The notes under the pieces: generated by a model
Told to the model about the DNA's origin: nothing
What the model saw: the letters and a program-made list of their open reading frames with translations, nothing else
The model's database searches: none
Translations under genes and position numbers: made by a program
Part shown: positions 1-2,665 of the stretch, one piece after another
Numbering within the stretch: the first letter of the stretch is position 1
How the letters are laid out: every line of letters begins with the position of its first letter
Origin: Acholeplasmataceae bacterium
Lineage (GTDB): Bacteria > Bacillota_I > Bacilli_A > Acholeplasmatales > Acholeplasmataceae
NCBI GenBank assembly: GCA_012837585.1
Contig: DUQW01000088.1
Location: 1-41,425, forward strand
Length of the DNA stretch: 41,425 nt
Direction of reading: 5' to 3'

Positions 1-599
1 ACAACATCATATCCTTCATTTTTTGCTTTTTGAAGTCCGTCATAAATTACACTTGAAGGATCAGCAAATTGTTCTTTTGAATAAAAAGCTACTTTAGCGC
101 GATCGGCCCATATTTTTAATTGTTCGATAGCACCAGCTCTAAAAGTATCACCAGCAATAACTAATACTTTATGACCTTCAGATAGGAATTGATGAGCAAT
201 TTTTCCAATTGAAGTTGTTTTACCAACTCCATTAACACCTACAAAAAGATAAACGTTAATTTTATCTTTATCATATGTTAAGTCAGTAATAACAACCTCA
301 TCTTTTAAATATATTTCAAATAATTTATCGACAATTATTTCTGATAGTTCACTTGGATCTTCAATTTTCTTTGAGTTGATTTCTTTTTTTAATTCATCAA
401 CAAAATATAATACAGTATCAACACCTACGTCAGCTTGAATAAAAATATCTTCAATTGAATCAAATAGTTCATCATCAATACGATCGCTAGATTCTAAAAT
501 ATCTCTTAAATTATCTAAAGCTTGTCTTGAACGGTGAAGCCCCATTTCATATTTATTTGTTTTTGGTTTTCTTCTAAATATTCTCTTAAAAAAACTCAA
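1..599 (-). CDS. ftsY: Signal recognition particle receptor FtsY (partial, C-terminus beyond left edge)
   Basis: Reading the minus strand from a TTG at 597-599 gives MSFFKRIFRRKPKTNKYEMGLHRSRQALDNLRDI...VGVNGVGKTTSIGKIAHQFL...VIAGDTFRAGAIEQLKIWADR, the SRP-GTPase signature. SD-like AAAGGATG lies upstream. Confidence 0.93.
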   Translation of the reverse strand, partial: MSFFKRIFRRKPKTNKYEMGLHRSRQALDNLRDILESSDRIDDELFDSIEDIFIQADVGVDTVLYFVDELKKEINSKKIEDPSELSEIIVDKLFEIYLKDEVVITDLTYDKDKINVYLFVGVNGVGKTTSIGKIAHQFLSEGHKVLVIAGDTFRAGAIEQLKIWADRAKVAFYSKEQFADPSSVIYDGLQKAKNEGYDV

Positions 600-653: not shown

Positions 654-683
654 AAAAAAAGCGACCCTCTTGGGGAGAGGGTC
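654..683 (-). terminator. Intrinsic terminator GACCCTCT-CCCCA-AGAGGGTC-GC-TTTTTTT
   Basis: Perfect 8-bp stem followed by T7 on the minus strand, directly upstream of ftsY. Confidence 0.85.
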
Positions 684-752
684 TAATTAAGGGGATTTAG
701 TGTGAATAAATCACACTATAGGGGATAAGTAACATCTATAAAATTAGATGCA
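654..752 (-). ncRNA. Candidate orphan small RNA (~99 nt) with three C-rich motifs, own promoter and intrinsic terminator
   Basis: Minus-strand -35 TTTACA (781-786), 17-nt spacer, TGn-TATAAT -10 (758-763). Then a hairpin (733-738/745-750), AUCCCCU (720-726), an 8-bp hairpin (698-705/711-718), AUCCCCU (690-696), and an 8-bp terminator stem (663-670/676-683) with a CCCCA loop and T7. No ORF. Confidence 0.72.
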
Positions 753-757
753 CTTAA

Positions 758-786
758 ATTATAACACAGTTTTTACAAATTGTAAA
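758..786 (-). promoter_or_regulatory. Promoter of candidate sRNA (TTTACA-N17-TATAAT, extended -10)
   Basis: Direct reading of the minus strand: TTTACA ATTTGTAAAAACTGTGT TATAAT. Confidence 0.75.
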
Positions 787-841: not shown

Positions 842-2665
842 TTATTCATCTTTTTCTTCAATTTGTTTAGTGCTTCGTTTTGGTTTATCTGTTTCTATAT
901 TTTCGGTATATTTACATTTTGGAAAATTCGAACAACCAATAAATCTACCATAATTCGAATATTTATATTCTAGTGGATTACCGCATAGCGGGCACATTGT
1001 ACCCGTTTTTTCATTTGGTATAAAGGGCATGTTTTTATCTGCATATTGATAGATTGGCATAAAGTGATTATAGAATCTACGAAGTGTTTCAGTACGATCT
1101 TTTTTACCTTCGGCAATCTCATCTAAAACTGTTTCAAGTCTTGACGTATATTCATAGTTAATAATCTTGCTAAAATACTCAGTTAAAGCTTTTGAAGTAC
1201 GCATTCCTAATTTTGTTGGTACGAATCTTCTTTTTTCGGATCTTACATAATCTCTTTGTCTTAAAGTTGAGATAATATGTGCATATGTTGAAGGTCTACC
1301 AATTCCTAATTGTTCAAGTTTTTTAATTAGAGTAGCCTCAGAGTATCTAGTTGGTGGTTCGGTTTGTTTTTCATTGAATTTTAACTTCGCATTTACAAGT
1401 TCTTCACCAACTTCAAATTTTGGTAAAACCTTATCTTTATTATCATCTTTAATAATGGTATAACCTTTAAATGTTTGAATAACTTCTTCTGTTTCAAAAT
1501 CATGATCATTACTTGTAACAGTAATCTTAGTTACATCATATTTGCTGTCTGCCATTAATGCTTCTAAAGTTCTTTCATAGATCATTTTATATAATCTAAA
1601 TTGATCTTTATCTAAGTATGATTCAACTAATTCAGGAGTTAGTTTAACATCAGTAGGTCTAATTGCTTCATGGGCATCTTGTGATTGGTCTGATTGTTTT
1701 TGATTATAAAAGCCTAAATATTCTTTACCGTATTTTTCTTGGATAAAATCTCTTGCCGGGTATAAAAATTCGTTTGATAATCTTGTTGAGTCAGTACGCA
1801 TATACGTAATTAAACCAGTAATATCACCATTTATTTGAATACCTTCATATAATTGCTGAGCAACACGCATTGTCTTACTTGCTGAATATCTTAAGATGTT
1901 ATTAGCGTCTTGTTGTAATGTTGATGTAATATAAGCTGGTTTAGCTTTTGATGTTCTAACTCTTTTATCAATACTTTTAACTATATAAGGTCCAGTTACT
2001 TCTTCTTTAATAAGGTTAGCTTCTTCTAATTTAATTAAATCTTTATGTTGTTTAATATAGTTAAAGTCTATTTTATTATATATTAATTTAATATCATAGT
2101 AAGTTTCTGGAATAAATGCTTGAATTTCTTCTTCAAGTTCAACCACTAGCCTCAAGGCAACACTTTGAACTCTTCCTGCCGATTTAGCTTTAATTTTCTT
2201 TTTAACTAAATTAGATAATTTAAAACCAATAATTCGATCGACAATTCTTCTTGTTTCTTGAGATTCAACTAAATCTATATTAATTTTCTTTAAGTTATTT
2301 AATTCTTGTGAGACAGTCTTTTTAGTAATTTCTTTAAATTCAGCTCTATTTTTAGCATTTTCATCTAAATTTAAAATTTGTGATAAATGCCAAGCGATTG
2401 CCTCTCCTTCTCTATCAGGGTCAGTTGCAAGGATTACTTCTTTACCTTTGGCTGCCTTAATTAACTCCTCAACTACTTTTTCCTTACCTTTAGTTATTTC
2501 ATATCGAGGTTTAAAATCATTTTGAATATCAACGCCTAAATCACCACGGCCTGAAGTTGCTAAATCTCTAATGTGACCGACCGAAGCTAAAACTTGGACG
2601 TCTCGTCCAACATAACTTTTGATAGTTTTAGCTTTTGATGGAGATTCCACAATTAATAATTTCAT
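842..2665 (-). CDS. topA: DNA topoisomerase I
   Basis: MKLLIVESPSKAKTIKSYVG... with type IA motifs (ITYMRTDSTRLS, IGRPSTYAHIISTL) and one C-terminal zinc finger (CPLCGNPLEYKYSNYGRFIGCSNFPKC). Confidence 0.97.
   Translation of the reverse strand: MKLLIVESPSKAKTIKSYVGRDVQVLASVGHIRDLATSGRGDLGVDIQNDFKPRYEITKGKEKVVEELIKAAKGKEVILATDPDREGEAIAWHLSQILNLDENAKNRAEFKEITKKTVSQELNNLKKINIDLVESQETRRIVDRIIGFKLSNLVKKKIKAKSAGRVQSVALRLVVELEEEIQAFIPETYYDIKLIYNKIDFNYIKQHKDLIKLEEANLIKEEVTGPYIVKSIDKRVRTSKAKPAYITSTLQQDANNILRYSASKTMRVAQQLYEGIQINGDITGLITYMRTDSTRLSNEFLYPARDFIQEKYGKEYLGFYNQKQSDQSQDAHEAIRPTDVKLTPELVESYLDKDQFRLYKMIYERTLEALMADSKYDVTKITVTSNDHDFETEEVIQTFKGYTIIKDDNKDKVLPKFEVGEELVNAKLKFNEKQTEPPTRYSEATLIKKLEQLGIGRPSTYAHIISTLRQRDYVRSEKRRFVPTKLGMRTSKALTEYFSKIINYEYTSRLETVLDEIAEGKKDRTETLRRFYNHFMPIYQYADKNMPFIPNEKTGTMCPLCGNPLEYKYSNYGRFIGCSNFPKCKYTENIETDKPKRSTKQIEEKDE

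Follow-up and report, generated by a model that had tools for sequence, protein, structure and literature searches.

A conserved small RNA gene beside topA in Acholeplasmataceae with predicted pairing to ribosome-binding sites

Does the interval between topA and ftsY in an Acholeplasmataceae bacterium (contig DUQW01000088.1) contain an independent RNA gene and, if so, on what would such an RNA act? The stretch analyzed, hereafter the window, comprises 41,425 nucleotides (nt), and an initial annotation of it had placed an orphan C-rich small RNA (sRNA) in this interval. We find that the locus is almost certainly a functional RNA gene. It represents a real, conserved sRNA family that is absent from Rfam 15 and is of an already known functional kind. 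The gene, its structure, conservation and synteny, and an excess of complementarity to the ribosome-binding site of the thymidine kinase gene (tdk) are all computed results.

All elements of the complete transcription unit of about 100 nt that had been annotated are present, and they run on the minus strand from 751 to approximately 655:

655..751, minus strand: predicted small RNA of ~97 nt with its 5′ end at G751 (covariance-model match 655-751, 95.6 bits)
781..786, minus strand: -35 box TTTACA, from the promoter scan of the window
758..766, minus strand: extended -10 box TGTTATAAT, with TATAAT at 763-758
732..751, minus strand: hairpin 1 at the 5′ end (GCAUCUA...UAGAUGU), from the fold, with both-side changes in 6/6 model pairs
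720..731, minus strand: linker 1 UACUUAUCCCCU, with the first AUCCCCU heptamer at 726-720, nearly invariant in the family (fold and alignment)
698..718, minus strand: hairpin 2 (UAGUGUGA...UCACACUA), from the fold, with both-side changes in 4/6 model pairs
684..697, minus strand: linker 2 AAUCCCCUUAAUUA, with the second AUCCCCU heptamer at 696-690, the proposed main pairing site (fold and tdk pairing)
654..683, minus strand: intrinsic terminator with stem 683-676/670-663, loop CCCCA at 675-671 and T-tract 660-654 (both-side changes in 8/8 model pairs)

The promoter consists of TTTACA, a 17-nt spacer that includes the extended TG, and TATAAT. It is a consensus promoter, as annotated, with 11 of 12 consensus matches, and is the best of 12 promoter-like sites in the first 2.5 kb of the window. 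Because the number of such sites in this region is not in excess of shuffled sequences, a lone promoter-like site proves nothing, and it is the conservation of the promoter that carries weight. Among 44 copies of the sRNA, the -35 box is TTTACA in 38, the spacer is 17 nt long in 41, the extended TG is present in 34, and the distance from the -10 box to the first base of the sRNA is 6 nt in 41. The -10 box of the window also lies 6 nt from G751, the predicted first base, and this gap is the commonest one in start-site maps, including that of A. laidlawii (PMC5138195). Judging from these sequence features, 751 is the most likely start of a transcript that would be ~97 nt long. A perfect 15-base palindrome (TTTACAAATTGTAAA, 772-786) overlaps the -35 box, and a similar palindrome (TTTACAAAGTAAA) occurs in a genome of the same genus (G001) and is missing from other genera. 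It could be a genus-specific operator; visual inspection showed no operator shared by the whole family.

The minimum free energy of the sRNA is -30.3 kcal/mol, compared with -10.9 (standard deviation, sd, 2.5) for dinucleotide-shuffled sequences (z = -7.7), and none of 200 shuffles was as good. The fold contains the three hairpins and the strong intrinsic terminator of the initial annotation, and the two identical AUCCCCU heptamers are single-stranded between the hairpins, as had been described. Single-sequence folds of six diverse members agree with the three hairpins and leave most of both linkers unpaired.

Comparison with relatives shows that the RNA is not an orphan, as had been supposed, but is conserved across a bacterial family. 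In a BLASTN search of 61 relatives, homologues were found far outside the genus of the window. A covariance model (R1) built from 13 sequences, with matches counted at E ≤ 0.01, detected the sRNA in 41 of the 88 genomes of the Acholeplasmataceae family, or in 41 of 59 when genus g7 is set aside. This genus (29 genomes of 0.3–0.9 Mb), which probably corresponds to the phytoplasmas, had no model match. At the order level, two further genomes from sister families (G050 and G045) matched; beyond the order, a sample of 395 genomes from the class yielded no match. The motif also occurs in public records, among them those of Acholeplasma laidlawii, A. oculi, A. granularum and A. equifetale. Some pattern matches lie in records whose titles name unrelated phyla (Bacteroidales, Muricauda and others); these are likely chance 18-mer matches or contamination. 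A pattern scan of viral contigs for the sRNA motif found nothing. One metagenome bin record titled 'Phytoplasma sp.' (JAAYQV010000033.1, L131) carries the sRNA; it appears to correspond to genome G026, which groups outside genus g7, and its title is therefore probably a misnomer.

In the model-fitted alignment of the 44 copies (43 distinct), 96.0% of the paired cells can pair, compared with 80.1% (sd 0.7) in shuffled alignments, and 18 of 20 base pairs have changes on both sides. The covariation score was 0.511 versus 0.208 (sd 0.011) after shuffling, and all slid controls were far lower. When 40 copies were aligned by MAFFT, which takes no account of structure, RNAalifold gave essentially the same three helices, with compensatory changes in 18 pairs. 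The best-conserved unpaired bases are those of linker 1 (UACUUAUCCCCUAU) and linker 2 (AAAUCCCCUUAA). Modeling the relatives, a check proposed in the initial annotation, thus returned covarying helices, a conserved promoter and two nearly invariant C-rich linker motifs. The annotation had also pointed to a third CCCC in the terminator loop. The loop does read CCCCA in the window, but its sequence varies freely in the family and CCCC is confined to the three genomes of the window's genus. Because it is not conserved, it stands outside the family layout and is ruled out as a functional third site.

The sequence had been described as belonging to no recognized class, and cmscan against Rfam 15 gave no match at the gathering score in the whole window or in ten related loci. 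At E ≤ 10, a search of 600-860 returned nothing credible, and RsaE was not listed. Among known regulators, LhrC of Listeria monocytogenes (~111-114 nt) has an intrinsic terminator and redundant unpaired UCCC motifs, one of which lies single-stranded between two hairpins; it blocks a Shine-Dalgarno sequence, and Hfq is dispensable for its effect on lapB (PMC4132741). The acholeplasma sRNA resembles LhrC in length, in its intrinsic terminator and in its redundant unpaired C-rich motifs. It differs in having two linker motifs between three hairpins, usually a single chromosomal copy, a position adjoining topA and a different predicted target, and in matching no Rfam model. LhrC has C-rich motifs in the terminator loop and loop A, whereas no C-rich loop of hairpin 1 or 2 is a feature of the acholeplasma family. 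RsaE/RoxS of Staphylococcus and Bacillus binds the Shine-Dalgarno sequences of metabolic mRNAs through unpaired UCCC motifs and is conserved in its bacterial family (PMC9266662, PMC8216469). Unpaired C-rich motifs, here the two conserved AUCCCC linkers, and family-level conservation are shared with the acholeplasma sRNA. In contrast, the latter has no Rfam match, and a class-wide search with the new model was empty beyond the order. FsrA of Bacillus subtilis also targets mRNAs through C-rich single-stranded regions (PMC8216469), but it is regulated by Fur, and again the acholeplasma sRNA has no Rfam match.

The annotated parallel with RsaE/RoxS therefore holds as a functional likeness, with comparative support from the predicted Shine-Dalgarno pairing at tdk described below, but not as family membership: no covariance model of RsaE or LhrC matched, and the class sample held no member outside the order. 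By analogy with LhrC and RsaE/RoxS, the sRNA likely acts by Shine-Dalgarno pairing. The uORFC-13-1 motif of Acholeplasma, a conserved structured element upstream of aroF that is thought to hold an upstream open reading frame (ORF), was likewise found by comparative genomics in this genus but belongs to another locus (PMC8632094). The main text of that survey, in which 26 genomes were examined, reports the aroF leader motif and does not mention topA (PMC8632094). Our literature search, mostly without subscription papers, turned up neither an RNA described between topA and ftsY or tpx in Acholeplasma nor a conserved trans-acting sRNA of acholeplasmas.

Target candidates were defined as genes with AAGGGGAT at ribosome-binding distance in sRNA-carrying genomes. 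They included tdk in three genera, together with the nucleotide genes nrd, thyA, hpt, guaC and purA. Because this first choice was post hoc, tdk, identified by NCBIfam NF003296 above the cut-off, was tested in 32 genomes. We compared 27 sRNA-carrying genomes, leaving out that of sister-family G050, with 166 control starts. GGGG is present in the ribosome-binding region of tdk in 22/27 genomes, compared with 22/166 control starts. The mean RNAduplex energy, calculated with the host's own sRNA excluding the terminator, was -20.5 kcal/mol for tdk and -13.1 for the controls, and this gap of -7.4 dropped to -2.2 (sd 0.5) with dinucleotide-shuffled sRNAs. After the three genomes that had suggested the target were dropped, the p value for tdk was 3e-10, although such values overstate the case because related genomes are treated as independent. 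When genera are taken singly, the mean tdk energy is better than that of every control start in six of nine and than that of ~90% of the controls in the other three.

Contiguous Watson-Crick pairing of at least 9 bases containing CCC was observed for tdk in 10/27 genomes and for 3/166 controls, and the longest, in G028, comprises 14 contiguous pairs between CACAAAAUCCCCUU and AAGGGGAUUUUGUG. In genus g3, the complementarity spans 11-14 pairs, well past the GGGG core. A scan of the 88 genomes for the linker-2 complement AAGGGGATTTNG gave, among the matches examined, ten clear ones at ribosome-binding distance, of which eight belong to tdk, one to a peptidase-like gene and one to another gene; the remaining examined matches lie inside genes or have no clear gene start behind them. 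The complementarity to the tdk ribosome-binding site thus exceeds chance and recurs in relatives, although it has not been lost together with the sRNA. From these sequence comparisons, it appears moderately probable that the sRNA works through pairing at ribosome-binding sites and that tdk is one of its targets.

Several observations weigh against this assignment. A GGGG-type tdk site persists in four of five sRNA-less relatives, and the pairing potential is therefore not tied to the presence of the sRNA; some of the losses may be recent. A single genus (g3) supplies the strongest tdk evidence, so that kinship inflates the p values, and RNAduplex takes no account of mRNA accessibility. Linker 1, the best-conserved part of the RNA, has no recurrent perfect complement genome-wide: its full complement AGGGGATAAGTR has few matches outside the sRNA, none of them found at a ribosome-binding site, and is no more frequent than the reversed control. 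The tdk match is poor in the genome of the window itself, where the best candidate is ribonucleotide reductase (UAAAGGGGAUGCGAUAUG), which pairs better. Approximately half of 15 ribonucleotide reductase genes have a GGGG-type site, a post hoc count, and we regard this gene as a weaker candidate. As regards the global regulator that the initial annotation had considered possible, clear recurrence across genera was found for tdk only. purA was rejected as a second conserved target, with matches in G035, G027 and G050 and other site types elsewhere. The genome-wide count of AAGGGGAT-N-ATG was uninformative as a regulon signature because genomes with and without the sRNA were alike.

The genomic context of the sRNA is given by its two neighbors in the window:

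842..2665, minus strand: topA, the upstream neighbor and conserved context (TIGR01051; upstream in 40/44 loci)
1..599, minus strand: ftsY, the downstream neighbor with its own promoter-like box, truncated by the window edge (TIGR00064)

The gene order is topA-sRNA-(tpx)-ftsY. A thiol peroxidase gene (tpx) usually lies between the sRNA and ftsY, and the window's genus has no tpx there. In G062 and G045, the sRNA is located away from topA and retains its promoter and motifs, which indicates that it is independent of topA. We also inspected the interval downstream of topA in genomes without a model match, where the sRNA gene shows stepwise decay. G016 (L068) retains the promoter and terminator but has lost both CCCC motifs, G076 (L073) retains linker 2 and the terminator, and G004 (L067) and G017 (L069) have a terminator-like hairpin alone. 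The interval of G011 is diverged, and nothing recognizable remains in G079. The sister-family genomes G043 and G048 (L078, L079) contain diverged homologues behind topA, with one CCCC shifted into the hairpin-2 loop (GGTGTGTACCCCGACACACC).

Two genome assemblies contain more than one copy. In G066, a diverged second copy of 37 bits (L064, 2986-3077, minus strand) is located on contig 2 (93 kb), a second replicon or contig, between a serine recombinase and a gene resembling low-molecular-weight phosphatases, and is possibly a mobile paralogue. In G006, the same sRNA is found at the end of contig 54 behind topA (L071) and inside contig 66 (L039); this likely reflects assembly overlap or a strain mixture rather than two genes.

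Could the conserved segment be something other than an independent RNA gene? It lies 43-130 nt past topA in nearly all genomes, and some relatives (G004 and G017) keep merely a terminator-like hairpin at this position, as would be expected if it were the 3′ end of the topA mRNA, either a processed fragment or an elaborate terminator. This explanation is very improbable in view of the conserved promoter and start spacing, the separate terminator, the variable downstream gene (tpx or ftsY) with its own promoter-like box, and the relocated copies described above. A translated micro-ORF, (A/G)TG-YTR-CTT-ATC-CCC-TAT (Met-Leu-Leu-Ile-Pro-Tyr; 736-719, minus strand), would be another way to explain why linker 1 is conserved. 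(M/V)LLIPY is the reading in many copies, a stop follows directly in 18/42, and some of the changes are synonymous. However, the length ranges from 5 to 60 codons between copies, copy L055 is frame-shifted, and Leu is replaced by Phe, Tyr or His in several copies. No Shine-Dalgarno sequence precedes the start, which lies inside an arm of hairpin 1, where pairing accounts for the A/G and C/T changes, and linker 2 would be left unexplained. The peptide pattern is probably a by-product of RNA conservation, and we give a translated micro-ORF very little credence.

The function of the linkers leaves more room for alternatives. They might bind a protein, as in a decoy or titration RNA, or a partner RNA instead of mRNA ribosome-binding sites. 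Repeated motifs between hairpins are a feature of known titration RNAs, and the two near-identical motifs would offer such repeated binding sites. Moreover, the conserved stretch of linker 1 is longer than simple Shine-Dalgarno pairing would require, and genomes show no enrichment of its perfect complement. Against this, the tdk pairing excess survives the sRNA-shuffle controls and falls in the ribosome-binding site, and we know of no protein candidate for linker binding; we judge this explanation unlikely. Somewhat less unlikely, though still doubtful, is that the sRNA targets Shine-Dalgarno sites but that tdk is no real target, its GGGG being inherited for, e.g., translation strength, and the actual regulon being different, broader or species-specific. 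The retention of GGGG at tdk in sRNA-less relatives, the similar frequency of AAGGGGAT before ATG in genomes with and without the sRNA, and the better pairing of ribonucleotide reductase in the window's genome are in line with this. The long complementarity in g3 and the predominance of tdk among the clear matches to the linker-2 complement argue for tdk.

We therefore consider it reasonably probable, taking the explanation as a whole, that the RNA is a trans-acting sRNA that blocks ribosome-binding sites, including that of tdk. As expected of a trans-acting sRNA, its sequence predicts an independent gene with its own promoter and intrinsic terminator. In this model, a stand-alone sRNA of ~97-105 nt would be inherited vertically in the acholeplasma family. 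Hairpin 1 would cap the 5′ end, the intrinsic terminator would form the 3′ end, and hairpin 2 would separate and present the two unpaired C-rich linkers. The linkers may base-pair to selected mRNAs at G-rich (AAGGGGAU-type) ribosome-binding sites and thereby block translation initiation. In many species, linker 2 with its 5′ flank (CACAAAAUCCCCUU) would pair with the ribosome-binding site of tdk, and further likely targets would be other mRNAs with GGGG-type sites, including that of ribonucleotide reductase. That the RNA is transcribed and that it represses its targets is what we infer from these features, as is its physiological role, which may be to balance thymidine salvage and deoxynucleoside triphosphate supply. 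A broader proposal is tentative and on balance improbable: a family-wide nucleotide-supply sRNA that masks the GGGG-type sites of tdk and, in various species, of ribonucleotide reductase, thymidylate synthase and purine-salvage genes, and that has degenerated in a number of relatives and is missing from the family's smallest genomes.

Transcription factors are few in acholeplasmas. One RNA gene that is syntenic, covaries and has an explicit predicted target would provide a directly testable entry to post-transcriptional control in these bacteria, and its alignment is usable as the seed of a new Rfam family. The intact, diverged, remnant and lost copies form a natural series in which the decay of an sRNA regulon under genome reduction may be followed.
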